Assembly: GCF_036346855.1 (NCBI RefSeq)
Contig: NZ_CP107841.1
Coordinates: forward strand, 6,700,001-6,764,000
Direction: 5' to 3'
Origin: Streptomyces europaeiscabiei
GTDB lineage: Bacteria > Actinomycetota > Actinomycetes > Streptomycetales > Streptomycetaceae
DNA length: 64,000 nucleotides
Position 1 is the stretch's first letter. Each line of letters begins with the position of its first letter. Both the position numbers and the translations under genes were made by a program. The notes beneath the pieces are model-generated. The model was not told the DNA's origin and ran no database searches. It worked only from the letters and a program-made list of their open reading frames with translations. Shown here piece by piece: positions 30,692 through 45,960 of this stretch.

Positions 30692-32518
30692 GTGGCGCGC
30701 GACATCGCGGCTCCCCCTTCAACCGTCCCGACCACCCACCGAGAACTCGTGGCGTGGGTGAACGAGATCGCCGAACTGACCGAGCCGGACAACGTGGTCT
30801 GGTGCGATGGATCCGAGGCCGAGTACGAGCGCCTGTGCGGGGAGCTCGTCGAGAAGGGCACCTTCCGGAAGCTCGACCCGATCAAGCGCCCGAACTCGTA
30901 CTACGCCGCGTCCGACCCGACCGATGTCGCCCGGGTCGAGGACCGCACCTTCATCTGTTCGGAGAAGGAAGAGGACGCGGGCCCGACCAACCACTGGAAG
31001 GCCCCCGCCGAGATGCGGGACCTCTTCCAGGGCGAGAAGGGCCTGTTCCGCGGTGCGATGCGCGGTCGCACGATGTACGTCGTCCCGTTCTGCATGGGAC
31101 CGCTCGGCTCGCCGCTCTCCGCGATCGGTGTGGAGATCACCGATTCCGCGTACGTCGCCGTCTCCATGCGCACGATGACCCGTATGGGACAGCCGGTGCT
31201 GGACGAACTGGGCTCCGAGGGCTTCTTCGTGAAGGCCGTGCACACCCTCGGCGCCCCGCTGGAGCCCGGCCAGGCCGATGTGCCGTGGCCCTGCAACAGC
31301 ACCAAGTACATCTCCCACTTCCCCGAGAGCCGCGAGATCTGGTCGTACGGCTCCGGGTACGGCGGCAACGCGCTGCTCGGCAAGAAGTGCTACGCCCTGC
31401 GCATCGCGTCGGTGATGGCGCGCGACGAGGGCTGGCTGGCCGAGCACATGCTGATCCTGAAACTGACGCCCCCGCAGGGCGAGTCGAAGTACGTGGCGGC
31501 GGCCTTCCCGTCCGCCTGCGGCAAGACGAACCTGGCGATGCTGGAGCCGACCGTCAAGGGTTGGACCGTCGAGACGATCGGCGACGACATCGCGTGGATG
31601 CGCTTCGACGAGGACGGGCAGCTCTACGCCATCAACCCCGAGGCCGGGTTCTTCGGCGTCGCGCCCGGCACCGGTGAGCACACCAACGCCAACGCGATGA
31701 AGACGCTGTGGGGCAACTCGGTCTTCACCAACGTGGCGCTGACGGACGACGGCGACGTGTGGTGGGAGGGGATGACGGAGGAGACTCCGGCACACCTGAC
31801 CGACTGGAAGGGCAACGACTGGACGCCGGACACCGATACGCCGGCCGCCCACCCCAACGCCCGCTTCACGGTCCCCGCCTCCCAGTGCCCGATCATCGCG
31901 CCCGAGTGGGAGAACCCCAAGGGCGTGCCGATCTCGGCGATCCTGTTCGGTGGCCGCCGGGCCACGGCGGTGCCGCTGGTGACGGAGTCCTTCGACTGGA
32001 ACCACGGGGTGTTCCTGGGCGCGAACGTGGCGTCCGAGAAGACCGCCGCGGCCGAGGGCAAGGTCGGTGAGCTGCGCCGCGACCCCTTCGCGATGCTGCC
32101 TTTCTGCGGCTACAACATGGGCGACTACATGGGCCACTGGGTCGACGTCGCCAAGGGCAAGGACCAGGCCAAGCTGCCGAAGATCTACTACGTCAACTGG
32201 TTCCGCAAGAACGACGCGGGCAAGTTCGTCTGGCCCGGCTTCGGTGAGAACAGCCGCGTCCTGAAGTGGATCGTGGACCGGCTGGACGGCAGGGCGGAGG
32301 GGGTCGAGACCCCGATCGGCATCCTCCCGACGTCGCAGGCGCTGGACACGGAGGGGCTGGACCTCTCCTCGTCCGACCTCGACTTCCTGCTGACCGTCGA
32401 CAAGGAGGTGTGGCGGGAGGAGGCCGCGCTCGTCCCCGAACACCTCAACACCTTCGGTGACCACACGCCGAAGGAACTCTGGGACGAGTACCGGGCGCTG
32501 GTGAGCCGTCTGGGCTGA
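30692..32518 (+). CDS. pckG: Phosphoenolpyruvate carboxykinase (GTP)
   Basis: A 608-residue cytosolic enzyme converting oxaloacetate and GTP to PEP, GDP and CO2 in gluconeogenesis. The P-loop/kinase-1a motif [12 protein letters not shown] is near residue 275, PEP-site motif [18 protein letters not shown] near 220, and the guanine-binding region [15 protein letters not shown] near 510. The length matches GTP-type PEPCK and not the shorter ATP type. The GTG start has AGGAG at good spacing. The gene stands alone, followed by the long inverted repeat at 32.6 kb. Confidence 0.97.
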
Positions 32519-32916: not shown

Positions 32917-33906
32917 GTGCGTACACCCGTAAGTGACCCCCTGAGGATCGGCCCGTACAAGATAGTCGGCCGCCTCGGATCGGGCGGCATGGGCTGGGTC
33001 TACCTCGGCCGCTCACCCGCCGGCCGCGAGGTCGCCGTCAAGGTCGCCCGCCCCGAACTCGCCTCCGAACCCGAGTTCCGCGAACGCTTCGCCCGCGAGG
33101 TCGCCGCCGCCCGTGTGGTCAGCGGTGCCTACACCGCCGCCGTGGTCGACGCCGACCCGACGGCCGAACTCCCCTGGCTGGCCACCCTGTACGTCCCCGG
33201 CCCCTCGCTCGCGGAAGCGGTCCGCGCCGACGGCCCCCTCCCCGAGGCCCAGGTCCGCCCCCTCGGCGCCGGCCTCGTCGAGGCGTTGCAGGCCATCCAC
33301 GCCGCCCATGTGATCCACCGCGACCTCAAGCCGGCGAACGTCCTGCTCGCCCAGGACGGCCCCCGCGTCATCGACTTCGGCATCTCCCGGGTCGACGGCG
33401 CCCCCGGCCTCACCCGCGTCGGCGTCGTCGTCGGCACCCCGCCGTTCATGTCGCCCGAGCAGATCCGAGGCGACCGGGTCGGCCCGCCGAGTGACGTGTT
33501 CTCACTGGGCGGGGTCCTGGTGTACGCGCTCACCGGCCGCCCACCGCACGGCAGCGGGGAAGCCGTACGCGTGGAGGTCGTACGGGGAGAGCCGCGGCTC
33601 GACGGTGTACCGGCGGGACTGCGGCCCGTCATCGCCCGCTGTCTGGCCAAGCGCCCCGAGGACCGGCCCCGACTCGCAGAGATCCTGGCCCAGTTGATGG
33701 GGGAGGACGCCGGCGCCGAGGTGTGGCCGCCGCCGCAGGTGGCCCGGACCATCGAGGTACGGTACGAGGAACTGCAGGAGCGCCACCGGCACCGTACGAC
33801 GAGCGAGTCCGTCCCCTCCTGTCTGCTCCTCCACGCGCAGGCGCTGCTCGACGCCGGGCTGACCGACGCCATGGTCGCCGGGGCGGTGGTCCGTGACGGT
33901 GCCTGA
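32917..33906 (+). CDS. Serine/threonine protein kinase (PknB-like, no TM)
   Basis: A 329-residue kinase with all catalytic motifs: glycine loop GRLGSGGMGWVYLG, Lys42 (VAVKV), HRDLKPANVLL (Asp136), DFG (Asp153) and MSPEQIRG activation segment end. The catalytic domain is followed by about 70 residues without a TM helix or PASTA repeats, so it is cytoplasmic. The GTG at 32917 is chosen because GAGG lies 8 bp upstream; the GTG at 32908 is an alternative. The next gene overlaps its end by 14 bp, so both are co-translated. Confidence 0.92.
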   Translation: MRTPVSDPLRIGPYKIVGRLGSGGMGWVYLGRSPAGREVAVKVARPELASEPEFRERFAREVAAARVVSGAYTAAVVDADPTAELPWLATLYVPGPSLAEAVRADGPLPEAQVRPLGAGLVEALQAIHAAHVIHRDLKPANVLLAQDGPRVIDFGISRVDGAPGLTRVGVVVGTPPFMSPEQIRGDRVGPPSDVFSLGGVLVYALTGRPPHGSGEAVRVEVVRGEPRLDGVPAGLRPVIARCLAKRPEDRPRLAEILAQLMGEDAGAEVWPPPQVARTIEVRYEELQERHRHRTTSESVPSCLLLHAQALLDAGLTDAMVAGAVVRDGA

Positions 33907-34456
33907 CTCCTACCCCGGCCGGGATTCCTCCCCGGGCCGCGACTCCTCCCTCGGCCGCGACTCCTTCTCCGGGCGCGGCTCGTACTCCGGGAACTCCGGG
34001 CGCGACTCGTATCCGGCGGGCAATGCCGAGATATACGACCTCGGCACGCACTGGCGGCAGTTGGTGCAGAACTGGGTCGCGCGGCGGAATTACCACACGG
34101 TCCACGACACCGTCTCCGTTTCCCTGCGATTCGATCTCCATGAGGCGGGGCGGACGGTCACGGTGAGATTCATGACCACCAAGAGACTTCTCGTGGCGTT
34201 CGCGACCGACGGGAATTTCCTGCGGCAGGACCAGCTCGCCATCGCCGCGGCCGCGTCGAACGCATGGAATACCGAACAGCTGAACCCCATGCTTTCCGTG
34301 TGGGACGTGCGCGGGCCGCGCCCCTGTCTGGCCGGAGTCTGCGATCTGCCACTGACGTGCCGTATCACGCAGTCGGACTTCGACGCGCTGGCCAATGACT
34401 GGGTGGATCGGGCGCGACAGATGTTCAGTCGTTGTCATCAGGTGTTCAAGTTGTAG
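33893..34456 (+). CDS. YbjN-like (type III chaperone-fold) protein
   Basis: A 187-residue protein. The first 45 residues are low-complexity Ser/Gly/Arg/Asp (repeats of GRDS). The rest has the alternating beta-strands of the YbjN/secretion-chaperone-like fold: YHTVHDTVSVSLRFDL, TVTVRFMTTKRLLVAFATDG, and the helix AIAAAASNAWNTEQ typical of the family (NxWN). YbjN-fold proteins bind partner proteins. The GTG at 33893 overlaps the kinase gene, so the kinase or its targets are likely partners (inference). Confidence 0.75.
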   Translation: MTVPDSYPGRDSSPGRDSSLGRDSFSGRGSYSGNSGRDSYPAGNAEIYDLGTHWRQLVQNWVARRNYHTVHDTVSVSLRFDLHEAGRTVTVRFMTTKRLLVAFATDGNFLRQDQLAIAAAASNAWNTEQLNPMLSVWDVRGPRPCLAGVCDLPLTCRITQSDFDALANDWVDRARQMFSRCHQVFKL

Positions 34457-34614
34457 AAGTGAAAAGCGTATTGATCGTAAATTGACGGAAGTCGCCGTAA
34501 CTCCACCGGCGGAATTCACCAAACCCTTCCGGCCGCCGGGCCGCCTGCTCCACTATTGGATGGGTTTTTCAGGGCCGCGGGGGTGTGCCTTTCAGGCCAC
34601 GGGGGGTTGGTGCG

Positions 34615-35772
34615 ATGGGTGCGGTCGGGCGTTCGTCGTTTCTCGGTGTGCTGGTGGGGTTGTCGGTCGTGGTCCTGCCGGGGGGGCCGTCGGTGGCGGT
34701 GGCCGACTCCTGTGCCGACCGGCTCACCGAACAGTTGGAGTGCTGGGCCGAGGTGATCAAGGACGGCCCCGTGGTGATCACGCTGGACGAGCCACTGGCG
34801 TACGAGGACGTCGAGGAGCGGCAGCGCCACGACATCGAGACGCTGCGCAGGGACAGGTACCCGCTCGTGGTCCGGGTGCAGAAGGGCAAGGCCACCGGTG
34901 AGGGCGGTACGGCCCTGCTGGTCCTGGCCGAGGGGCGGCTCGTCCACCCCGAGGCCCGGATCGACCGGCTGCGGCCCGGCCCGATGGACGCTCTGCGGGA
35001 GGCGGGGCTGTGCATCGACCGGGAGCCGTTGTGCGGCCTGATCGAGCGCAAGGGCGACAAGTCCGAACCCCTGGACGGCAAGGCGCTGATCGACGCGGGG
35101 TTCGCCGCCGACCACACCACACATGTCGAGGCCATCGGCCCCGTAGAGAACGACCGGAAACCGTCCGCCTCGACCGCGCCGGGCAAATCCGCCGGCCAGG
35201 GCGGCGAGGAGCGGGACGACGACCGGGCCGCCCCCACCGACGGCGAAGCCGTCGGCTACAGCGGCGCCACCTGGACCGCCTTCTGGATGGGCCTCCTCCT
35301 CGCCCTGCTCCTTCTCGCCTTCGTGATCGTGATCCGGCGGTCCAGGGGCCCGGTGGCCGTGGGACACCGGGCGCCGTCCCCCGGGCGGGGCGTCGGCGGG
35401 CCCGCGCGGGCGGCCCCGGCCCACGCGGCGCGCGGCGGGGGCGGCGGAGCCGGGAGCGGGGGCGGCGCCGGGAGCGGCGCCGGGGACGAGAGCACCACGC
35501 GGCTGCGGGTGGCGCCCGCGCCCCGGTACGGGCGGCAGGTGGGGACCCGCCCCGCGCACGCCCGGACCGCGGTCGTACGGACCGAACTGCATCCGCAGGG
35601 CTATGTCGAGGTCGACCGGGTGCTGCGCCGGGCGGTGTGGGCCGAGCCGGGGCGGCCGCCGCCCGCGCCCGGCGGTCTCGTCGATGTCACCGACGCACGA
35701 GAACGCGACTCCGACGTCCTGTACGCCTTCCCGCCGACCGCCGCCCGGCATGCGAAGGGCACGCCCCGGTAG
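34615..35772 (+). CDS. Secreted/anchored hypothetical protein
   Basis: A 385-residue protein with a signal peptide (about residues 1-30, ending VAVADS), an extracytoplasmic domain of about 190 residues with five cysteines, one TM helix at about 222-245 (FWMGLLLALLLLAFVIVI) and a Gly/Ala/Arg-rich cytoplasmic tail. The outside domain has an organised beta-strand pattern (ALLVLAEGRLVHPEARIDRL) but no family I recognise. The ATG at 34615 follows GGGGGG. It precedes the TerY-type triad and may be its outside-facing component. Confidence 0.8.
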   Translation: MGAVGRSSFLGVLVGLSVVVLPGGPSVAVADSCADRLTEQLECWAEVIKDGPVVITLDEPLAYEDVEERQRHDIETLRRDRYPLVVRVQKGKATGEGGTALLVLAEGRLVHPEARIDRLRPGPMDALREAGLCIDREPLCGLIERKGDKSEPLDGKALIDAGFAADHTTHVEAIGPVENDRKPSASTAPGKSAGQGGEERDDDRAAPTDGEAVGYSGATWTAFWMGLLLALLLLAFVIVIRRSRGPVAVGHRAPSPGRGVGGPARAAPAHAARGGGGGAGSGGGAGSGAGDESTTRLRVAPAPRYGRQVGTRPAHARTAVVRTELHPQGYVEVDRVLRRAVWAEPGRPPPAPGGLVDVTDARERDSDVLYAFPPTAARHAKGTPR

Positions 35773-35828
35773 GGCACCGGCCGAGCCGTCGGAACGACGC
35801 CCAGGACGCACCACAGCTCGACCGCGAC

Positions 35829-35886
35829 AGCAGAGGCTCCGGAAGCACAGAGGCACCGGAAGCACAGAGGCACCAGAAGCACAGGG
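35829..35886 (+). repeat. 17-bp tandem repeat in the vWA gene leader
   Basis: The unit cacagaggcaccggaag occurs at 35846-35862 and, with one change, at 35863-35879, with a diverged copy before and a partial one after. The array ends 10 bp before the vWA gene start and includes its ribosome-binding purines. Confidence 0.75.
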
Positions 35887-35895
35887 GGAAGAACC

Positions 35896-36657
35896 ATGCA
35901 CAGCGAATACCCGCCCACGCTGCCGGCGGAGTACGCCGACATCGAGTTCGAGAACAACGCCCAGCGCATGCCGCTCGTGCTCTGCCTCGACACGTCCAGT
36001 TCCATGGCGGGCCAGCCGATCCAGACGCTCAACAACGCGCTCGCCGAGTGGACCCGCGAACTCCATGACGACGTCAGCCTCAGCTACAGCGTGGAGGTCG
36101 CCGTCGTCACCTTCGGCGGCCAGGGCGTCGGCGCCTGGCGCGGACCGCAACTCCTCGACCCACGCACCCGGACGAGCCCCTTCATACCCGCGCACGCCTT
36201 CCAGGCACCGCAGCTCACGGCCGCCGGCGTCACCCTGATGACCGAGGCGCTGGAGCTCGCGATGCACATCGTGGCGGCCCGCAAGAGCGAACTGCGGGCC
36301 TCCGGGCTGCAGTACTACCGGCCGCAGATCTGCCTCGTCACCGACGGCCTGCCCACCGACCCGACCGGCCATCTCACCGACTCCTGGCACCGGTTGGTCC
36401 CCGTCCTCGCCGAGGAGCAGCGCGCCCGCCGGTTCCGGCTGTACGCGATCGGGGTCGGCGGGATCACGGACCGGGGGGAGCAGGTGCTGCGCGCGTTCGC
36501 GCCGAAGTTCAACGCCCGGCTGCAGGGCTTCCCGTTCCGGGAGCTGCTCCAGATGATGTCCGCCAGCGCCAACGCCGAGCAGAAGGGCGCGGGGGACGAG
36601 GTGTTCGAGAAGATCTTCAGCCAGTTCAAGACACAACGCCCGGCCTGGGAGGCGTGA
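35896..36657 (+). CDS. TerY-type von Willebrand factor A protein
   Basis: A 253-residue soluble vWA protein. The MIDAS motif DTSSSM is at residues 33-38 (LVLCLDTSSSMAGQP), with the conserved Thr in GVTLMTEAL and Asp in LVTDGLPTDP. No signal peptide. Proteins of this type (TerY/YegL) bind a metal ion and scaffold stress-response partners. It is followed immediately by a PP2C phosphatase and a kinase, the same trio as E. coli yegL-yegK-yegI. One bp separates it from the phosphatase. Confidence 0.9.
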   Translation: MHSEYPPTLPAEYADIEFENNAQRMPLVLCLDTSSSMAGQPIQTLNNALAEWTRELHDDVSLSYSVEVAVVTFGGQGVGAWRGPQLLDPRTRTSPFIPAHAFQAPQLTAAGVTLMTEALELAMHIVAARKSELRASGLQYYRPQICLVTDGLPTDPTGHLTDSWHRLVPVLAEEQRARRFRLYAIGVGGITDRGEQVLRAFAPKFNARLQGFPFRELLQMMSASANAEQKGAGDEVFEKIFSQFKTQRPAWEA

Positions 36658-36658
36658 G

Positions 36659-37447
36659 GTGACCGCCGCCCCGCCCTGGCGGATCCACGGCCTGAGCGTC
36701 GAGGGCTACCGGCACCGGCGCCAGGGCCTGCCCTGTCAGGACGCGTGCGCCGCGACCGCCACGCCCTGCGTCGCCGTGCTCGCCGTCGCCGACGGGGCCG
36801 GCAGTCGGCCCCGGTCGGAGGAGGGCGCGCGGCTCGCGGTGCAGCTCGCGACCGAGCACTTCACGCGGCGGGCCGAGGCGGCCGTGGAGGTGCGGCCGGG
36901 GGAGGCCGTGCACGAGTTGCTGCGGGACGCCCTGCACGACGTGAGCAAGGACTTCCTCGACCGGACCGGCGCCGACGCGCAGGACTTCGCCACGACACTC
37001 ACGGTGGTGGTGCTCGCGCCCGGCTGGATCGGCCACGTCACCGTGGGGGACGGGTTCGTCGTCGTACGGGCCGGGACGGAGGACGGGGAGCGGCAGTTCC
37101 ATCTGCTGCCGCAGGCCGCGGCGGCGAGCGAGTACAGCAACGAGACGGTCTTTCTGACCTCGCCGGACGTGGCGCGCTGGACCCGCACCGAGTGCGTCGC
37201 GGACGACGGGGTCGACGGGGTGCTCCTGTCCACGGACGGGCTCGCCCAGGCCATGCTCAACCGTTCGGCCGACGGCGCCCAGTCCCCGAACACCTCGTTC
37301 GCCGACGCCGTCTTCCGCTCCCTCGACACCGCCCCCGAGGACGACCGCGACCCCAACCTGGCCGCCCTCCTGCGCTCCGACCGCCTCACCGCCCTCAACG
37401 CCGACGACAAGACGCTGCTGCGGGCCGTGCGCACCCACCGGCGATGA
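36659..37447 (+). CDS. PP2C-family protein phosphatase (TerY-P type)
   Basis: A 262-residue metal-dependent Ser/Thr phosphatase. The PP2C metal-site residues appear as VADGAGSRP (about residue 43), VGDGFVVV (about 125) and LSTDGLAQ (about 200). N-terminal GYRHRRQGLPCQDACAA is typical of the PP2C_2 group found with vWA and kinase genes. It lacks membrane segments. The GTG start directly follows the vWA stop. It would reverse phosphorylation by the adjoining kinase. Confidence 0.9.
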   Translation: MTAAPPWRIHGLSVEGYRHRRQGLPCQDACAATATPCVAVLAVADGAGSRPRSEEGARLAVQLATEHFTRRAEAAVEVRPGEAVHELLRDALHDVSKDFLDRTGADAQDFATTLTVVVLAPGWIGHVTVGDGFVVVRAGTEDGERQFHLLPQAAAASEYSNETVFLTSPDVARWTRTECVADDGVDGVLLSTDGLAQAMLNRSADGAQSPNTSFADAVFRSLDTAPEDDRDPNLAALLRSDRLTALNADDKTLLRAVRTHRR

Positions 37448-37517
37448 CTGCTCCGCACAGGGCGCGACCGCTTCTGCGTGGCGACGAACGGCCCGACGAA
37501 CACCCGGAGGTACGGCC

Positions 37518-38678
37518 ATGAGCGGCCGCACGGTCTTTCTCGACGGTAGGCGGGTCACTCTGGCCGAGTTGCCGCTGAAGGGCGGCGGACAGGCGGCGGT
37601 GTTCCCGGTGGAGGGGGACACGGGAATCGTCGTCAAGATCTACCGGGACACACCCGGGCCGGACCAGGAGCGGCGGCTGGCCCGCATGCTCACGATGTCC
37701 CCGCTGGCCGCCCGCCCGACGGACGCCAACCAGCCGCCCGAGCTGGCCTGGCCCACCGCGATCGCCCGGGGCACGAACGGCGAGTTCCTCGGGTACGCCA
37801 TGCGCCGCTTCGGCGAACCCCAACACGTCCAGCTGGTCGGTCTGTTCACCCGCGTCCAGCGCCTCAAGCTCTTCCCGGACCGCGCCGACTGGCGGTTCCT
37901 GCTGGGCGTCGCCTGGAACCTCGCCTTCATGACCGCCCGTATGCACTACGACGACCTCGTCATCGGCGACTTCTCCAGCAGCAACGTCGTCGTCGACGCC
38001 AACGGCTTCGTCACCTTCCTCGACTGCGACTCGATCGCCTTCACCGACCCGGTCACCGGCGAACTCTTCCCGTGCCTGATGCACACCACCGACTACTCGT
38101 CCCCCGAGCGACAGGCGGGCGGCCCCGCCACCCGGCAGAGCGACGACTTCGCCCTCGCCGTCCTCGTCTACCAGCTGCTCACCGCCGGCAACCACCCCTT
38201 CGGCGGGGTCCCGCACGAGAGCGCCTCCGAGTCGACCGTCAAGGACAACATCGCCGCGAGCTGCAGCTATGTCGTCCGTCCCGAGCGGGTCACCATTCCG
38301 CGCGGCACGATCGACCCGTCCGTCCTGCCGACCGAACTCCTCATCCTCGCCAAGGCCGCCTTCGGGCCCGGCGTCGAGATCCCCGACGCCCGGCCGCAGG
38401 CCGAGGCCTGGCTCCGCGCCCTCGACAAGGAACGCGGCGAGGTGCGCGCCTGCACGGTACGGCCCCTGCACACCTACGGCTCCCACCTGCCGACCTGTCC
38501 CTGGTGCACCCGCGCCGCGGTCACCGGCCACGACGTGTTCAACGGCCCCCGGCCGACGTCGGTGCCGGTCCCACCGCCCCCGCCCGGCCCGCCCCCGTCG
38601 CCGTACGCGGCGCTGAAGGTGCTGGCCGTGGTCGCGGGGGTGGTGTTGCTGATCGTGATCCTGACCAGCGTGGGGTGA
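37518..38678 (+). CDS. TerY-P triad protein kinase (YegI-like) with Cys pair and TM
   Basis: A 386-residue divergent kinase. A lysine in IVVKIYRD (about residue 40) and the catalytic core GDFSSSNVVVDANG and LDCDSIAF (DCD in place of DFG) lie in the usual order, followed by TDYSSPERQ. The HRD histidine/arginine is replaced (VIGDFSS). After the kinase domain come CPWC (one half of a zinc ribbon), a Pro-rich linker and one C-terminal TM helix (VLAVVAGVVLLIVIL). It thus tethers the triad to the membrane. The C-terminus is shorter than the helix-hairpin-helix kinases of Gram-negatives. Confidence 0.88.
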   Translation: MSGRTVFLDGRRVTLAELPLKGGGQAAVFPVEGDTGIVVKIYRDTPGPDQERRLARMLTMSPLAARPTDANQPPELAWPTAIARGTNGEFLGYAMRRFGEPQHVQLVGLFTRVQRLKLFPDRADWRFLLGVAWNLAFMTARMHYDDLVIGDFSSSNVVVDANGFVTFLDCDSIAFTDPVTGELFPCLMHTTDYSSPERQAGGPATRQSDDFALAVLVYQLLTAGNHPFGGVPHESASESTVKDNIAASCSYVVRPERVTIPRGTIDPSVLPTELLILAKAAFGPGVEIPDARPQAEAWLRALDKERGEVRACTVRPLHTYGSHLPTCPWCTRAAVTGHDVFNGPRPTSVPVPPPPPGPPPSPYAALKVLAVVAGVVLLIVILTSVG

Positions 38679-38722
38679 GAGTCTCGGACCGAAGGGGTGG
38701 ATGGGTGCGTGGGTGGGTGCGG

Positions 38723-38990
38723 CTCCGGTGGGGCTTCTCGCGCAGTTCCCCGCGCCCCTGAAAAGCGGGGGCCCCGCCCCGTACTTTTCGGGCCCCGCCG
38801 CCCCGTCGTCTTCCAGGCTCGCCGCCCCGTCGTCTTCCAGGCTCGCGGTGCCGATTGTCTTTCAGGACTGCGGGGCCGTGGTCTTTCAGGCCCGCAGGGG
38901 CCTGGGCTTTTAGGGGCGCGGGGAACTGCGCGAGAAGCCCCACCGGGCCCGCGCCCGACCACCGGGCCCGCGCCCGACCACCGGGCCCGC
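38723..38990. repeat. Dispersed repeat, copy D: inverted pair plus tandem repeats
   Basis: The left arm 38723-38766 and right arm 38906-38946 are inverted copies over about 41 bp. Between them are repeated variants of a CTTTCAGG/CTTCCAGG unit (two near-identical 24-bp copies around 38800-38850). After the right arm, caccgggcccgcgcccgac repeats 2.5 times (38941-38990). The structure lies between the two convergent stress operons and presumably terminates both. Confidence 0.8.
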
Positions 38991-38996
38991 GCCCCC

Positions 38997-39590
38997 TCAA
39001 CCCGACCGGTCCTCCAGATACCGCGTATGCGACTCCTGCCGACGGGCCTCCGCGTCACGCAGAGCCATCGCAAGATGCCCCAACTCATTCTGCAGCAGCC
39101 CGAGCTGACGTTCGAGGTGCCGCTCCGGCGGTTCCGTGCCCGGCGTCAGACGGGTCCACCAGCGGGTGCGTACGAAGGTGTCGACGGCCTCGGGGACGTC
39201 CTGCCGTACGGCCCGGGAGAGGGCGTGGATGCCCTCGGGGTCGCGGGCCAGGACCTCGGCGACCCAGCCGGGGTCGAGGAGGGCCGTGAGGAGTTCGGTC
39301 AGCTCGGTGAGCCGGCCGGAGGCGGCCGGCGGGAGCTCGATGTCGGCCAGGTACGCGCGGAGGATGCCGAAGTCGGTCCGCAGCTCGTCCAGTTGGGCGG
39401 AGGGGTCCGGGAAGTCCGGCAGCGGGGGGCGCTCCGGCGGGGCGATCAGCGCGCCCGCGCCGTACAGCCCGACGACCACGACCGGCCAGTACGGTCCCGC
39501 GACGCCCGCGAAGGTCAGCCCGAGCCCGGCGACCCCGAGGGCGCTGCCCGTGAGGTTCTTCCGGGACTCGAGGTACGCGAGGAATCTCAT
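38997..39590 (-). CDS. Membrane-associated hypothetical protein
   Basis: A 197-residue protein. A hydrophobic hairpin at about residues 14-52 (LTGSALGVAGLGLTFAGVAG, WPVVVVGLYGAGALI) is followed by a long, charged, mostly helical cytoplasmic domain with coiled-coil-like Leu spacing near the C-terminus (ERHLERQLGLLQNELGHLAM). No catalytic motif. It appears to be the last gene of the leftward TelA operon, but is separated from it by the IS-like remnant at 39.7 kb. Start ATG 39590 with AGGTAG upstream. Confidence 0.8.
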   Translation of the reverse strand: MRFLAYLESRKNLTGSALGVAGLGLTFAGVAGPYWPVVVVGLYGAGALIAPPERPPLPDFPDPSAQLDELRTDFGILRAYLADIELPPAASGRLTELTELLTALLDPGWVAEVLARDPEGIHALSRAVRQDVPEAVDTFVRTRWWTRLTPGTEPPERHLERQLGLLQNELGHLAMALRDAEARRQESHTRYLEDRSG

Positions 39591-39656
39591 GGATCTACCT
39601 CTGATCTTGGCCGGTGCTCCGCCTTTCAGAGCGGGGGTGAAGGCCATCTTTGGGGC

Positions 39657-39850
39657 GGAGGCGCGGAGCGCAGGAGTGCTCCGCGCCTCCGGGGTGACGG
39701 TCAGATGGGGCTCCGCTGGTTTTCGATGTACTGCCCCAGGTAGCGGCGGATGTGGTCCTGTTCGCCGTTGAACTGCTTCAGCTCGGCCTCGAAGCCCGCT
39801 GCCGCGAGGTAAGCGGGAAGCTCCCGGCTGCAGCCGGGAGAGCACTTCAC
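39657..39850. mobile_element. Probable IS200/IS605-family remnant
   Basis: Bases 39701-39850 on the minus strand encode a 49-codon frame (GTG 39850 to TGA 39701) containing AELKQFNGEQDH followed by QYIENQRSPI. These resemble an internal and the C-terminal segment of IS200/IS605 TnpA, joined by a large deletion that removed the HxH and Tyr catalytic region. A perfect 20-bp palindrome CTCCCGGCTGCAGCCGGGAG (39821-39840), followed by agcacttcac, looks like a right-end hairpin. A 13-bp-stem hairpin (39657-39669/39678-39690) would mark the left end and also act as a terminator. The frame's GTG overlaps the stop of the vWA lipoprotein gene. A genuine small coupled gene is the alternative. Confidence 0.55.
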
Positions 39851-41406
39851 TGGTAGCCACGGATCTCCTCGAAGGCGCCGTCGAGCGAGCCCTGCCGGGC
39901 GTCGAACAGGCGCCCGCCGGTCAGGTCGGCGATGTGCTCCAGCTCGCCCTTGTCGGAGTCGCCGAAGAGGATCGGGAAGACGGGGATCCGCTGCTCGGCG
40001 GCGGGCAGCCGACCGTAGAAGTCGTCGAAGTCGGCGGGGCTCGCGCCCTCGGTGTTCTCGCCGTCCGTCATCAGCACGATGGAGGTGAAGGTGTCCCGGT
40101 CAACGGTGCCGAGATGCTCGTACGCCTTCCGCAGTGAGGTGTAGATGGCGGTGTCGCCGTCGGCGGACAGCTTCCGGGTGTCGGCGCGGATGCCGTCGAG
40201 CCCGGCCTTCGGGTCCTCGGGCCGCACGACATGCGTGCGCACGCTCTTCACGTCCGAGCCGAACGGCATCAGCGTGACCTCCTCCCGGTCCCGGAAGTCG
40301 CCGGTCAGCTCGGTGAGCGCGGTCTTCAGCCGGTCGAGGCGGTCGCCCTCCATCGAGCCCGAGGTGTCCAGGACGTACACGGTCCTGGAGGGGCGGCGCA
40401 GCTCGTTCTCGTACGCGTAGAGGAGGCCGTCGGCGACGGACCGGCTGCCGGGGAAGGGGAGTTCGCGGCGGCGCGTGGTGTCGAGGCCGGCCGCGGGCGG
40501 GACGGAGGCGACGACCGGGCGGCGCAGCGTCCTCTCGGTGATCAGCCGCTGGATGCCCGGGGTGCGCAGGGCGTCCGTGAGACGGCGTACGTCGTCCCGG
40601 ACGTCCTCGCTCGTGGACGCCAGCGAGGAGAGCGGGTAGTCGGCGGTGACGACCCCGTCGCGCGGCCGGATCACCGTCAGGCCCTTCCTCCCCTTCAGCA
40701 CCGACTCGTAGTTGAGGAGCGCGTCGATGTCACCGCGCCGGTCGTACGCCGCCGCCAGCCAGCCCGACGACCCGGACGTCAGCTTCTGCCCCGTGAAGAA
40801 CTCCTTCAGCCGGGGCGTCGCCCGCGCCACGTCCGCGTCCGTGAGCGCGGACTGGGCGTCGGAGAGGCCCGACGCCACCGAGACGAGCGTCGAGAAACCG
40901 GAGTGGGAGCGGGACGGGTCGGTCATGCCGTACGTCAATTTCCCGTCCGCCACCGCGTTCTCGATGTCCGACCAGGTGACGTTCTCCGGCTTCCACCCCA
41001 GCTTCCGTACGGTCTCGTTCTTCACACCGATCGCGACCGGACTGGACATCACCGACGTCTCGGACACGACCTGCTTCGCCGCGTCCGGGCGGAGCCGCAG
41101 GTAGTCGTTGGAGGAGAGCCAGACGGCGTCGTACGAGCCCTTTGCCCGCGACTCGGTGAGCAGTTCGACCGCGTCGAGCGTGCCCATGTAGGTGGGCCGG
41201 ACCTTGATCCCGGTGTCCTTCTCGACCCGCTCCAGCACCGGCTTCATGTCGGCGAGTTCACTGGAGGCGAGGACGCGGAGGGTGCCGGGGACGTACGTGG
41301 TCGCCTCGGCCGGATCGGGCTGCGCCCGGTTCGCGGCGGTGCAGGCGGTGGCCAGGAGGGCGAGGGCGGTCGCCGCGGCGACGGCCGTCGTCGTACGTGT
41401 TCTCAT
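39847..41406 (-). CDS. Solute-binding / vWA domain lipoprotein
   Basis: A 519-residue exported lipoprotein. The signal sequence ends in a plausible lipobox (LALLATAC, Cys at about residue 22). Residues about 40-310 are a type 2 periplasmic-binding-like domain (LRVLASSELADMKPVLERV, TDPSRSHSGFSTLVSVASG). Residues about 340-515 are a vWA domain with MIDAS VLDTSGSMEGDRL and LMTDGENTEG. This fusion occurs next to TelA genes in actinobacteria. Its ATG overlaps the TelA stop by 4 bp (41403-41406). It may sense or bind a ligand outside the cell; which one is unknown. Confidence 0.9.
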   Translation of the reverse strand: MRTRTTTAVAAATALALLATACTAANRAQPDPAEATTYVPGTLRVLASSELADMKPVLERVEKDTGIKVRPTYMGTLDAVELLTESRAKGSYDAVWLSSNDYLRLRPDAAKQVVSETSVMSSPVAIGVKNETVRKLGWKPENVTWSDIENAVADGKLTYGMTDPSRSHSGFSTLVSVASGLSDAQSALTDADVARATPRLKEFFTGQKLTSGSSGWLAAAYDRRGDIDALLNYESVLKGRKGLTVIRPRDGVVTADYPLSSLASTSEDVRDDVRRLTDALRTPGIQRLITERTLRRPVVASVPPAAGLDTTRRRELPFPGSRSVADGLLYAYENELRRPSRTVYVLDTSGSMEGDRLDRLKTALTELTGDFRDREEVTLMPFGSDVKSVRTHVVRPEDPKAGLDGIRADTRKLSADGDTAIYTSLRKAYEHLGTVDRDTFTSIVLMTDGENTEGASPADFDDFYGRLPAAEQRIPVFPILFGDSDKGELEHIADLTGGRLFDARQGSLDGAFEEIRGYQ

Positions 41407-42593
41407 CCGAGGCCCCCTTCCAGCGCTCCCCGGTTCCGGCTCCGCTCCAAGTACTGCGTGGCGTTCTGGAGTTCGGAGGTCAGGGACTCGACGGTCGTGG
41501 CCATGGTCTCCGTGGCCTGCACCTTGTAGGTGTCGATGGCGTCGAGGGTGCGGTAGATCTGCTGGAAGGCCGAGCGGAGCGTCTCCGCGCCGACGGCCGG
41601 GTCGGCGGCGATGCGCTGGATCTCGCCGGTCTGGGTGGCGAGCATCTCGGCATTGCCCCGGATGAGGTCCTCGGTGGTGCCGCGCAACGCGTTGACCTGG
41701 TCGACGACCCTCTTCTGGTTGTCGAGGGCGGAGGCGAGCATCACGGAGATGCGCAGCGCCGAGACCGTGGTCGTGGCGGCCCGGTCGACGCCCTTGATCA
41801 GCTCCTCGTTGTTGCGCCGTACGACGTCCATGGCCAGATAGCCCTGGGCGCAGACGGCCAGCTGGGTGAGCAGGTCCTGGTGCTTCTGGCGGACGGGGAA
41901 GAGGACGTCGGCGCGCAGGGTGTCGCCCTGCTGCGGATCGGCCCCGTGGATGTGCGACTGGATGTGCGCCTCGACAGCCGTGTCCAGGGCCTCCGTGAGG
42001 ACGACGTACTCCTGGAGCTTGCCCATGGTCTCCCACAGCCGGACGCGTTCGGTCTGCAACGCGGCGTTGTCGCGCCGCAGTTCGTCCTGACCGCCGCGCA
42101 ACGACCCCACGATCCTGTTCAACGTCCCCTGCGCGGAGGCGTACTTGGCGACGTGGTCGCGCAGCTTGTTCCCGCCGGGCAGCCGGGACAGGAACTTGCG
42201 TCCCTTGCTCGCCGCCAGGTCACGCGGGTCCAGGTCCTCGACCACACGTCGGAGCTCGACGAGCGAACCCCCGACCTGAGACTGGGCGTCCCCGCCCTTG
42301 CTCGGCAGGCTGCGCACGGTCCGCTCCAGCATCCGGTTGGACTGCGCGGCGGCGGTGCGCATCTCGCCCGCGCCGAGCGAGGTGATCTCCCCGACCCGGC
42401 CGGCGAACTCCGGGGAGCGCGCGTCGAGAGCGGCGAGCCCCCGCACGTACTCCTCGGCCTTGCGGGCCATGTCCGTCCGCACGGACTCCTCGACCGGCAC
42501 GAGCCCGCCGGCCTTCTCCCGGGGCACGGCGGCGACCGGCTCGGGAGGGGTGAGGGTGAAGGTGCTGTCGCCGCTGCTGTCTTCGATGGTCAT
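41403..42593 (-). CDS. TelA-family toxic-anion resistance protein
   Basis: A 396-residue helical cytoplasmic protein of the TelA/KlaA family, named for tellurite resistance. Family hallmarks include LPGGNKLRDHVAKYASAQGTL, LTQLAVCAQGYLAMDVVRRN and ALDNQKRVVDQVNALRGTTEDLI near the C-terminus. Length matches the family of about 380-400 residues. It overlaps the downstream lipoprotein gene by 4 bp and follows the upstream gene by 21 bp. The biochemical activity of TelA is unknown; an association with membrane stress is established. Confidence 0.93.
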   Translation of the reverse strand: MTIEDSSGDSTFTLTPPEPVAAVPREKAGGLVPVEESVRTDMARKAEEYVRGLAALDARSPEFAGRVGEITSLGAGEMRTAAAQSNRMLERTVRSLPSKGGDAQSQVGGSLVELRRVVEDLDPRDLAASKGRKFLSRLPGGNKLRDHVAKYASAQGTLNRIVGSLRGGQDELRRDNAALQTERVRLWETMGKLQEYVVLTEALDTAVEAHIQSHIHGADPQQGDTLRADVLFPVRQKHQDLLTQLAVCAQGYLAMDVVRRNNEELIKGVDRAATTTVSALRISVMLASALDNQKRVVDQVNALRGTTEDLIRGNAEMLATQTGEIQRIAADPAVGAETLRSAFQQIYRTLDAIDTYKVQATETMATTVESLTSELQNATQYLERSRNRGALEGGLG

Positions 42594-42614
42594 GTGTCGT
42601 GTTCCCCCGTCGTC

Positions 42615-43730
42615 CTACCGGCCCCTGGCCCGGCGCGCCATCTCGTGCAGCACCTCGGAGGTGGGCACGGGCGCCTGCCGGACGGCCAGCTTCCGCATCA
42701 GATAGGTGGTGTGGCCGGCGGTCGCCGACGTGAACTCGGTGGCCGTGCCCTGCGGCCGGAATCCGTGCCGGGCGGCCAGTTCGCGCAACTTCGGGTCGGT
42801 GCCGAGGAGTTCGCCGAGCGCGCGGCCCTCGGCCGTGACCGGTACGACGGTGTGGTCGCTGAAGACGGTGGTGTCCGGATAGAGGACGACCATGTCCTCG
42901 ATGCTCTGGCCCGCCGTGAGCAGGGCGGCGACCTGCGACTCGTAGACGAGTACGAGCGGGTTGCCGACCCCGCTGACGAAGTCGCGGAAGGCCGCGTCGG
43001 TGCTCGGCTGCTGGGCGCCCTGGACGCTGATCAGCTCGTGCATCAGCGGCGCGGTCCGGTCCAGGTCCGCCTTGCTCGCGACCACCCGCCCGCCGTTGGC
43101 GACGTTGGAGGCGGCGGCGAGGTAGAGCGCTCCCGAGCTGGAGGTGGTCGGATCGGTGGTGGCGATGTACAGGAGCCCCAGCAACTCGCCGTACTTGTCG
43201 GCCCCCTTGAGGTCCTGCCACGTTCGGCCGGCCTCGGCGGCCCTCAGATATGCGCCCATGTCGAGGACGCCCCGGCTCTCGTCGAGCGTGGCGAGCCCGT
43301 TCTGCCGCAGCACCTCGGCGGCGTCCCGGTGGGCGACCACGACGAGGGGCGAGTAGAAGGGGCGCGGCAGCGGCTCACGGACCTTGTACTTCGCGGCCAG
43401 TTCGTCGGCGGGTGCCTTGCTGGACGGGAACGCGAAGTCGTACCCCTTCAGATCCAGGCCGTCCATGGCCCAGGATCCCGACGTCTCCGTCTTCACGGTG
43501 TAGCCCTTGGCGGCCAGGGCCTTCACCACCTGCGGGTCGGCGAAGAACTCCGCCTTCTCCGACCCGATCACTCCTCGCACGGTCTTCGTTGCCGTGCTCG
43601 TGTCCCCGGTTTCCCGGCCCGCCACGACGGCTGCCACCACGCCGCCGATCAGCAGTACCGCGAGGACGATTCCTGCGATTCGTCTCACACGGGGAGAGTG
43701 CTCCCGGAACCCAACGTTCCTCGGCGTCAT
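42615..43730 (-). CDS. Membrane-anchored substrate-binding-like protein
   Basis: A 371-residue protein with one N-terminal TM anchor at about residues 18-41 (IAGIVLAVLLIGGVVAAVVAG) and an extracytoplasmic type 2 binding-protein-like domain: VRGVIGSEKAEFFADPQVVK, then LLYIATTDPTTSSSGALYLA, the usual hinge region. It lacks a lipobox cysteine. First gene of the leftward TelA operon. No transporter permease accompanies it, so it is more likely a sensor or receptor than part of an uptake system (inference). Confidence 0.85.
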   Translation of the reverse strand: MTPRNVGFREHSPRVRRIAGIVLAVLLIGGVVAAVVAGRETGDTSTATKTVRGVIGSEKAEFFADPQVVKALAAKGYTVKTETSGSWAMDGLDLKGYDFAFPSSKAPADELAAKYKVREPLPRPFYSPLVVVAHRDAAEVLRQNGLATLDESRGVLDMGAYLRAAEAGRTWQDLKGADKYGELLGLLYIATTDPTTSSSGALYLAAASNVANGGRVVASKADLDRTAPLMHELISVQGAQQPSTDAAFRDFVSGVGNPLVLVYESQVAALLTAGQSIEDMVVLYPDTTVFSDHTVVPVTAEGRALGELLGTDPKLRELAARHGFRPQGTATEFTSATAGHTTYLMRKLAVRQAPVPTSEVLHEMARRARGR

Positions 43731-44502: not shown

Positions 44503-44559
44503 TGTCACACCTGCCCGGAGCTGTCACACCTGCCCGGCGGTGTCATGCCTGCCCGTATC
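44503..44559. repeat. 19-bp tandem triplication at the aminotransferase 3' end
   Basis: Three 19-bp units (tgtcacacctgcccggagc, tgtcacacctgcccggcgg, tgtcatgcctgcccgtatc) occupy 44503-44521, 44522-44540 and 44541-44559. The last unit contains the stop codon and final residues of the aminotransferase gene, so the other two are downstream duplications of the gene's end. Confidence 0.8.
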
Positions 44560-45754
44560 CGTCCAGGAAGTTCCCGATCCGGGTGATCGCGGACCGGAGG
44601 TCACCCACCGTCGGCAGGGTGACCACCCGGAAGTGGTCGGGTTCGGCCCAGTTGAACCCGGTGCCCTGGACGACCATGATCTTCTCCTGCCGGAGCAGGT
44701 CGAGGACCATCTGACGGTCGTCCTTGATCTTGAAGACGTTCGGGTCGAGGCGTGGGAAGAGGTACAGCGCGCCCTTCGGCTTCACGCACGAGACGCCGGG
44801 GATCTGCGTGAGCAGCTCGTACGCGAGGTCCCGCTGCTCCTTGAGCCGCCCGCCCGGCAGGACCAGGTCGTTGATCGTCTGGCGCCCGCTGAGTGCGGCG
44901 ACCACCCCGTGCTGACCCGGCATGTTCGCGCACAGCCGCATGTTCGCGAGGATCGTCAGGCCCTCGATGTAGGAGTCGGCGTGTGCGCGCGGCCCGGAGA
45001 TCGCCATCCAGCCCACCCGGTAGCCGGCCACCCGGTACGCCTTCGACATGCCGTTGAAGGTGAGGGTCAGCAGGTCGGGGGCGACCGAGGCCGTCGGTGT
45101 GTGTGTGGCGTCGTCGTAGAGGATCTTGTCGTAGATCTCGTCCGAGCAGACGAGGAGGTTGTGGCGGCGCGCGATGTCCGTCAGGCCGCGCAGCATCGCC
45201 TCGTCGTACACCGCGCCCGTCGGGTTGTTCGGGTTGATGATGACGATCGCCTTGGTGCGGTCGGTGACCTTCCGCTCGACGTCCGCGAGGTCCGGCATCC
45301 AGTCGGACTGCTCGTCGCAGCGGTAGTGCACGGCCGTACCGCCGGACAGGGAGACCGCCGCCGTCCACAGCGGGTAGTCCGGGGACGGTACGAGGACCTC
45401 GTCGCCGTCGTCGAGCAGGCCCTGCATGGCCATCACGATCAGCTCGGAGACGCCGTTGCCGATGAAGACGTGCTCGACGTCCGTCTCGATGCCGAGGGTC
45501 TGGTTGTGCATGACCACCGCGCGGCGCGCCGCGAGCAGGCCCTTCGCGTCGCCGTAGCCGTGGGCCGACGACACGTTGCGGAGGATGTCCTCCAGGATCT
45601 CGGGCGGGCACTCGAAGCCGAAGGCCGCCGGATTGCCCGTGTTCAGCTTGAGGATGCGATGCCCTGCCGCCTCGAGCCGCATCGCCTCCTCGAGCACCGG
45701 GCCCCGGATCTCGTAACAGACGTTGGCGAGCTTGGTCGACTGGATCACCTGCAT
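44543..45754 (-). CDS. Class I/II PLP aminotransferase (AlaA-like)
   Basis: A 403-residue fold-type I aminotransferase. Motifs include LNTGNPAAFGF, FIGNGVSELI, IINPNNPTGAVY, CSDEIYDKILYDD and the PLP lysine in FNGMSKAYRVAGYRVGW. MQVIQSTKLANVCYEIRGPVL at the N-terminus and the overall pattern match the E. coli AlaA/YfbQ alanine-synthesising aminotransferase group. Start ATG 45754. It is divergent from the Ser/Pro-rich membrane protein gene over about 200 bp. Substrate (alanine/glutamate) is inferred from the family. Confidence 0.92.
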   Translation of the reverse strand: MQVIQSTKLANVCYEIRGPVLEEAMRLEAAGHRILKLNTGNPAAFGFECPPEILEDILRNVSSAHGYGDAKGLLAARRAVVMHNQTLGIETDVEHVFIGNGVSELIVMAMQGLLDDGDEVLVPSPDYPLWTAAVSLSGGTAVHYRCDEQSDWMPDLADVERKVTDRTKAIVIINPNNPTGAVYDEAMLRGLTDIARRHNLLVCSDEIYDKILYDDATHTPTASVAPDLLTLTFNGMSKAYRVAGYRVGWMAISGPRAHADSYIEGLTILANMRLCANMPGQHGVVAALSGRQTINDLVLPGGRLKEQRDLAYELLTQIPGVSCVKPKGALYLFPRLDPNVFKIKDDRQMVLDLLRQEKIMVVQGTGFNWAEPDHFRVVTLPTVGDLRSAITRIGNFLDGYGQA

Positions 45755-45960
45755 GTCCGTGAGCTTACGGCCCGGTAACGCGTTCCGGGTCGTGTTTTCC
45801 ACCACGTGGACGGGCCGCTATACCCCGAAATGCCCTGCCGCTGTCCCCCTGACCCTCCTCCTCTCTACAATCCGCCAGAAGTCCGGCCGTCCCCACCGCC
45901 CGGTCCTCGACCACGCGACACATGGTCATACGGCACATGACACGAAAGCGGCGGAACGAC

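Follow-up and report, generated by a model that had tools for sequence, protein, structure and literature searches.

Gene content of the PEPCK-aminotransferase interval

The window analyzed here is a 64,000-nucleotide stretch (G000:C1:6700001-6764000) of the 10.95-Mb Streptomyces europaeiscabiei genome, and its subject is a group of ten genes flanked by a phosphoenolpyruvate carboxykinase (PEPCK) gene (30692-32518) and an aminotransferase gene (44543-45805). The ten form two convergent sets, labeled here cassette A (six genes, plus strand) and operon B (four genes, minus strand). The 318-bp gap between them holds one weak terminator-like stem (one seen versus 0.3 expected). An earlier note on this DNA had read both sets as one extended stress module, in which receptors outside the cell feed a cytoplasmic phosphorylation switch. 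All the genes it named exist as described, as judged by open reading frame (ORF), third-codon-position GC content (GC3) and Pfam checks; indeed, all ten ORFs are present and the majority pass the GC3 coding filter. No match above cut-off was found in NCBIfam for any of the ten proteins.

Operon B begins with SBP1 (42615-43730), a solute-binding-like protein anchored by an N-terminal transmembrane segment (TM), and continues with TelA (41403-42593; PF05816 at 1.3e-86, 291 bits against a cut-off of 30). The TelA stop codon overlaps by 4 bp the start of a gene (39847-41406) for a lipoprotein-like fusion of a type II solute-binding protein (SBP) domain with a vWA domain carrying a metal ion-dependent adhesion site (MIDAS), which ends in IRGYQ; we call it SBP/vWA. 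Pfam finds both domains in the same chain (SBP_bac_11 at 3.8e-14, vWA at 4.4e-11). The last gene (38997-39590) encodes a small protein with a hydrophobic N-terminus and a helical C-terminal domain, for which we coin the name TPP, for TelA-partner protein.

Conservation and architecture of operon B

A profile of nine SBP/vWA proteins, including Sphaerotilus, Variovorax and Deinococcus plasmid copies, was scanned against genome contigs; the 587 stretches confirmed were ranked by their match to the Sphaerotilus protein, and the best 80 of them serve here as a wider set. At 70 of these 80 loci, which as best matches to the Sphaerotilus query do not give an unbiased rate, SBP/vWA is accompanied by SBP1, TelA and TPP. 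Of the rest, three have only TelA and TPP, on contigs too short for SBP1, two have SBP1 and TPP, and five have SBP1 only. The loci come from Burkholderiales, Gammaproteobacteria, Lentzea and other Actinobacteria, Deinococcales, Acidobacteriia and Spartobacteria (Verrucomicrobia), with one metagenome-assembled genome titled Bacteroidetes, possibly mis-binned. Judged from approximate gene calls, the commonest families are the four of operon B (76, 72, 68 and 66 of 80), followed by an ABC ATPase found within 9 kb, on either strand, at 19 loci. No transporter family is conserved in the 80 neighborhoods, which supports the earlier proposal that the binding proteins serve sensing rather than import. 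The four genes are also tightly coupled: where all four were called (63 loci), neighbors overlap or lie at most 100 bp apart in 60 cases for SBP/vWA-TPP, 56 for SBP1-TelA and 50 for TelA-SBP/vWA. In a class sample of 246 evenly drawn genomes, SBP/vWA occurs in 29, TelA in 41 and both in 25, so that TelA is present in 25/29 genomes with SBP/vWA versus 16/217 without (p 1.7e-19, kinship ignored). Some other genomes with SBP/vWA keep TelA at a separate locus; since TelA is absent or elsewhere in some genomes, the SBP1-SBP/vWA pair is the most constant part of operon B. One Variovorax plasmid copy (L197) has a flotillin-domain gene on one side and Wadjet-type defense genes on the other. Operon B was itself considered as a known anti-phage system and rejected, PADLOC matching none of its four proteins.

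The SBP/vWA proteins share a fixed C-terminus. All 76 copies at named loci contain DxSGS and end in RGYQ (Arg-Gly-Tyr-Gln), and the same end is kept in 15/15 copies at less than 60% identity; in contrast, the C-termini of SBP1, TelA and TPP are variable. Of the 76 called proteins, whose starts are approximate, 57 begin with a lipobox-like sequence. Fifty-four further ORFs from other loci, some near-identical, end in RGYQ (47), RAYQ (2) or differently (5), the last five being paralogous genus loci without adjoining TelA. These loci (L061, L062, L186, L187, L188) carry a second SBP1-SBP/vWA pair in which SBP/vWA is 36-38% identical and has an RGC-type C-terminus; in L061, the TPP position is taken by a 255-residue protein that, by eye, has a single hydrophobic stretch.

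The AlphaFold2 model of SBP/vWA has a predicted local distance difference test score (pLDDT) of 89.6 and places a helix at residues 508-518 near the C-terminus. Among the best 50 of 1640 Foldseek matches, the neighbors of its SBP domain are AfuA sugar-phosphate, ferric (FbpA), sulfate and thiamin binding proteins, with AfuA the best (E 2.9e-14, target TM-score 0.69). Rank 14 is 6lkg, an entry titled as a two-component signaling protein, which we take to be HptA, a sensor SBP. By sequence, the same domain matches the PDB only marginally (ModA entries, E 0.08-0.39). The modeled fold suggests that the ligand may be an anionic or phosphorylated solute. For SBP1, SBP_bac_11 (5.9e-5) is slightly below cut-off and matches three of 24 members of its alignment. 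AlphaFold2 nonetheless models the protein with confidence (pLDDT 88.0, predicted template modeling score 0.81), and hydropathy places a TM at residues 14-41 of the window copy, with an N-terminal TM in 57/73 relatives. PDB sequence searches gave a repeat protein (1.3e-4) and an aldolase (0.67) for SBP1, both judged to be chance, and no credible relative for TelA. Invariant residues are numerous in both SBPs (not mapped to the cleft).

TPP relatives were called at 66 of the 80 loci. The earlier description of a small membrane protein agrees with the hydrophobic N-terminus and with the relatives, 63 of which have one (46) or two (17) TMs and three none; in the window copy, no TM rises above the threshold of the hydropathy scan. 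We read the N-terminal part as a putative hairpin and the helical domain as cytoplasmic. TPP has a relative in the small protein encoded after TelA in other Actinobacteria (hhalign 98.3%, E 2e-14, three-sequence profiles). We rejected TPP as XpaC, as PF10112 is matched by one of 24 members at E 0.2 and above cut-off in none of nine genomes; two TPP relatives that carry an XpaC-type name in UniRef count against this rejection.

Cassette A and the distribution of the two cassettes

Cassette A begins with pkn1 (32917-33906), a Hanks-type Ser/Thr kinase (Pfam Pkinase, 1.6e-37) with no TM by hydropathy, whose ORF overlaps by 14 bp that of a YbjN-like protein (33893-34456). The YbjN match is weak, with PF10722 found in two of 13 family members (best 8e-4). 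This gene adjoins the triad described below at 19 of 22 other triad loci of the genus. The third product (34585-35772), noted earlier as a secreted one-TM protein, has the signal peptide and the single TM. An alignment of 16 members adds a fast-changing ectodomain and a conserved NfeD-like tail, with sub-threshold PF01957 (NfeD) matches in five of the 16 (best E 0.01) and none in the window copy.

The remaining three genes are adjacent, as in the TerY-P triad. They encode a TerY/YegL-type vWA protein without TM (35896-36657; Pfam vWA, 3.9e-6), a PphC-type PP2C phosphatase (36659-37447; PP2C_2, 1e-43) and a YegI-type kinase (37518-38678). The earlier assignment to the YegL/PphC/YegI kind is supported for all three, family profiles (19 vWA, 19 PP2C and 19 kinase sequences) matching E. 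coli YegL, PphC and YegI. The vWA MIDAS in the window reads DTSSSM and TDG, its middle Thr placed by eye; across the family, YegL included, DxSxSM is found in 18/20 and TDG in 20/20. A PDB sequence search with this vWA protein gave no match at E 0.1. The kinase scores 20 bits against Pfam (3.6e-4), below the 32-bit cut-off, and has a Pro-rich linker and a C-terminal TM that is conserved among relatives. The window kinase shares the motif C...H.Y..H...CPWC with YegI and most relatives; L225 has a variant. A C-terminal zinc ribbon on the kinase is part of the TerY-P definition as given in an excerpt of PMC11090510, and the window kinase has a putative one by sequence motif. PADLOC returned kinase-family matches for both kinases, one weak PP2C match (0.0029) and none for the other seven proteins. 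In L170, two additional pkn1-like kinase matches lie between the triad and operon B. In cassette A, a receptor-like protein of its own next to the triad suggests a receptor-to-switch design without operon B; the cassette would then be a membrane-tethered TerY-P phosphorylation switch that does not need operon B.

The two cassettes were scored in a genus sample of 323 genomes. SBP/vWA orthologues (at least 55% identity, with three split-hit genomes counted and 17 paralogue-only genomes excluded) place operon B in 122, triad vWA orthologues (at least 68% identity, with ten weaker matches of 31-52% excluded) occur in 29, and 22 genomes have both. Operon B thus occurs without the triad vWA in 100/122. 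Seventeen of the 29 triad-vWA genomes have operon B within 10 kb; in G419, triad and operon B are on separate contigs, each ending inside the kinase gene (L169, L176); and in the remaining 11, operon B is absent (7) or elsewhere (4). At the wider loci, a YegL/PphC/YegI-type trio adjoins operon B in one of 80 (L306, Streptomyces justiciae). That the receptor pair accompanies TelA is supported (70/80); that it accompanies the triad is not (1/80).

In 11 (L034-L039, L180-L184) of 15 fetched genus loci that have operon B without adjoining cassette A, PEPCK is directly next to TPP (the other four are L033, L178, L179 and L185). At six other loci (L156-L159, L162, L164), the kinase cassette is located at PEPCK, and operon B is not found intact up to the next flank; the genome of L164 has operon B at another site (L179). 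Beside the intact-looking kinase cassette of L157 lies a 207-bp SBP/vWA remnant (L157:12595-12801), likely reflecting recent loss of operon B. On a PEPCK tree of 27 loci, the three cassette states are clustered, with nine changes versus a shuffled mean of 12.7 and a value as low in 0/200 shuffles. Well-supported branches require at least three changes per state. Together with the loci that have one cassette only, these changes indicate that each cassette was gained or lost more than once. Repeated loss from one shared ancestral locus could account for this, but the two cannot be an obligate functional unit.

Two observations pull toward a link: the cassettes co-occur above expectation (22/29 versus 100/294, Fisher p 2.4e-5, kinship ignored), and each frequently occupies the PEPCK-aminotransferase interval. 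On balance, we favor, with moderate confidence, two independent signaling cassettes that share this interval. The single extended module is not upheld: operon B lacks the trio at 79/80 wider loci, and cassette A is without operon B in 7/29 genomes and away from it in 4/29. Independent occurrence was the result that the earlier note had set in advance as speaking against its module, and it is largely what is seen, though co-occurrence exceeds expectation.

A candidate relay to TelA and its relation to known systems

TelA and a TPP homologue also lead another sensor operon. Among 24 TelA loci located apart from SBP/vWA, seven (L203, L204, L206-L209, L211) have the gene order TelA, TPP homologue, AAA, GlnX, GlnH, a 371-residue-type protein, PknG, PP2C and a gene for about 425 residues; L211 has an additional gene. 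For L191, from the same genome as L204, Pfam gives AAA, SBP_bac_3, the PknG rubredoxin, kinase and TPR domains, and PP2C above cut-off; GlnX gives a weak four-helix match (0.014). By eye, the last gene is a vWA gene with DTSGSM at six of the seven loci, and in L204 and L209 a zinc-ribbon/FHA-like gene comes next. Excerpts of PMC6069109 and PMC9769921 describe GlnH-GlnX-PknG as a sensor chain with experimental support, and the position of TelA and the TPP homologue at its head adds to the case for sensing without import. The PknG-linked PP2C and vWA proteins were considered as orthologues of cassette A and rejected; as they do not match the window families, the resemblance is one of analogy, and PknG and the window kinases are related only as Hanks kinases. 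The window's genome has GlnX-GlnH-PknG elsewhere, with no TelA match in that 20-kb stretch (L326), and no SBP_bac_3 sensor, GlnX or PknG is among the Pfam matches of cassette A and operon B. At another site of this genome (L327, G000:C1:6012000-6031999), a divergent second PknG-like kinase lies beside a distant vWA and a gene that by eye is trypsin-like.

TelA is found in further settings. TerD-like genes accompany it in L222-L224, the first and last of which also have TerC-like genes (by eye), with a TPP-like gene adjoining it in L223 and L224 (the L224 label by eye). The window's genome has 17 TerD matches, none in the window and the nearest about 184 kb beyond (TerC was not searched). In L190 and L217, TelA and a TPP-like gene lie near a very large dynamin-like GTPase gene (by eye). 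A TelA cluster on the Vibrio plasmid pSEA2 (L201) has, in addition to several genes for binding proteins, a VWA gene, an OmpA-type SBP and ABC genes; its SBPs were tried as relatives of SBP1 or SBP/vWA and gave no profile match.

We lean toward operon B being an SBP-triggered transmembrane relay to TelA, with cassette A a separate TerY-P switch in the same interval. The observations beneath this reading are the gene set, its order, tight coupling and conservation, the sequence signs of topology, the modeled fold and the finding that no transporter is a conserved neighbor. Probably, the four-gene set senses something extracellular through its two binding proteins without importing it. From here, we infer the ligand, docking, signal direction and output as follows. 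Outside, two type II binding proteins would be held at the membrane, SBP1 by its N-terminal TM and SBP/vWA as a lipoprotein; TPP would sit in the membrane with its putatively cytoplasmic helical domain, and TelA in the cytoplasm. An SBP cleft would close on ligand, SBP/vWA would dock onto SBP1 or TPP by way of its MIDAS and its fixed RGYQ end, TPP would transmit the change through the membrane, and TelA, as cytoplasmic output, would protect the envelope. A bolder version, which we hold only tentatively, is that operon B represents an undescribed, phylum-spanning class of transmembrane signaling built on two binding proteins without a transporter, with the free C-terminal RGYQ of the one that bears the exported MIDAS vWA a ligand-displaceable tether docking into a partner, perhaps the SBP1 cleft, TPP the relay and TelA the output, and with TelA-TPP a common output stage for several sensors (the SBP pair, GlnH-GlnX-PknG and Ter). 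Among the papers listed by literature searches, no title or abstract opening describes operon B; the Ter-system paper of Anantharaman and colleagues (2012) may mention it.

Several points weigh against the relay. Besides the sampling of the 80 loci and the missing TM call in the window's TPP, TelA is missing from four of the 29 class genomes that carry SBP/vWA, and the paralogous genus loci and a Deinococcus plasmid have the SBP pair without adjoining TelA; TelA is therefore not obligatory. A GlnH-like SBP gene is present at eight of the 80 loci, and some of the 80 have ABC permease-like genes within 9 kb (by eye).

A single pathway, with the operon B receptors feeding the cassette A kinase/PP2C/vWA switch, would explain the adjacency in 17/29 triad-vWA genomes and the contig-split case, the co-occurrence (p 2.4e-5) in an interval often common to both, and the clustering of states on the PEPCK tree; moreover, at the seven TelA-PknG loci one operon combines TelA and a TPP homologue with genes for an SBP, a kinase and a PP2C and with a vWA-size gene. 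We nonetheless consider it very unlikely, given operon B without the vWA in 100/122 genomes and without the trio at 79/80 wider loci, the vWA without operon B in 7/29, the three or more changes forced per state, and the failure of the PknG-linked PP2C and vWA to match the window families. Import through a permease encoded elsewhere merits little credence: the SBP domain fold resembles transport SBPs, ABC ATPase-family genes lie within 9 kb at 19/80 loci and the Vibrio cluster contains ABC ATPase and permease genes, yet the 80 neighborhoods lack a conserved transporter family, a vWA is fused to the SBP, and the Vibrio SBPs match neither family. Among the linked genes, the window's operon B has no permease or ATPase of an ABC importer.

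An envelope-protection scaffold would have no ligand signal at all; the SBP-like domains would bind a structural component of the envelope or an attacking compound while TelA and TPP stabilize the membrane. TelA disruption in Listeria raises nisin and tellurite susceptibility (as cited in an excerpt of PMC12791056), and a TelA gene and an XpaC-like gene appear in a transcriptome table of a paper on the Lactococcus lactis envelope sensor CesSR (PMC3139573). The invariant residues of both SBPs and the AfuA/FbpA/sulfate-type fold of one instead suggest small-ligand binding, leaving the scaffold a minority possibility. For cassette A, an anti-phage role of the TerY-P kind, such modules being reported as defense in an excerpt of PMC11090510 (citing Gao 2020), would fit its patchy presence (29/323 genus genomes). 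We judge it improbable, as PADLOC gives no match for the vWA, the weak PP2C match and kinase-family matches, the six genes include no nuclease, and the cassette tends to occupy one chromosomal interval.

TelA occurs widely, and little is known of its biochemistry. A fixed set of TelA partners, in the same order in distant phyla, defines a complex for reconstitution and ligand screening, and the invariant RGYQ allows a test of assembly at a few residues. Through its tie to the GlnH-GlnX-PknG operon, TelA-TPP suggests a route from an external solute to TelA that can be tested. The joint module is not supported; for operon B, the idea of sensing has gained strength.

Each known system shares part of this design. 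HptA (6lkg) and AfuA have the fold of the SBP domain of SBP/vWA; at 13-15% identity, they lack the vWA and TelA. The TelA-XpaC (YaaN-XpaC) pair of Firmicutes likewise sets TelA next to a small partner, but TPP fails the XpaC Pfam model. TelA is common to operon B and the Ter operons with TerD and TerC, whereas the window is without TerD. GlnH-GlnX-PknG resembles operon B in having an SBP lipoprotein without a transporter and, as proposed for operon B, a membrane relay; operon B has another SBP family and no GlnX, PknG or FHA protein. Three cassette A genes are homologous to the YegL-PphC(YegK)-YegI or TerY-P triad and retain the MIDAS and the zinc-ribbon-like CPWC motif. To that triad, cassette A adds the pkn1, YbjN-like and receptor-like genes, and its kinase a terminal TM.

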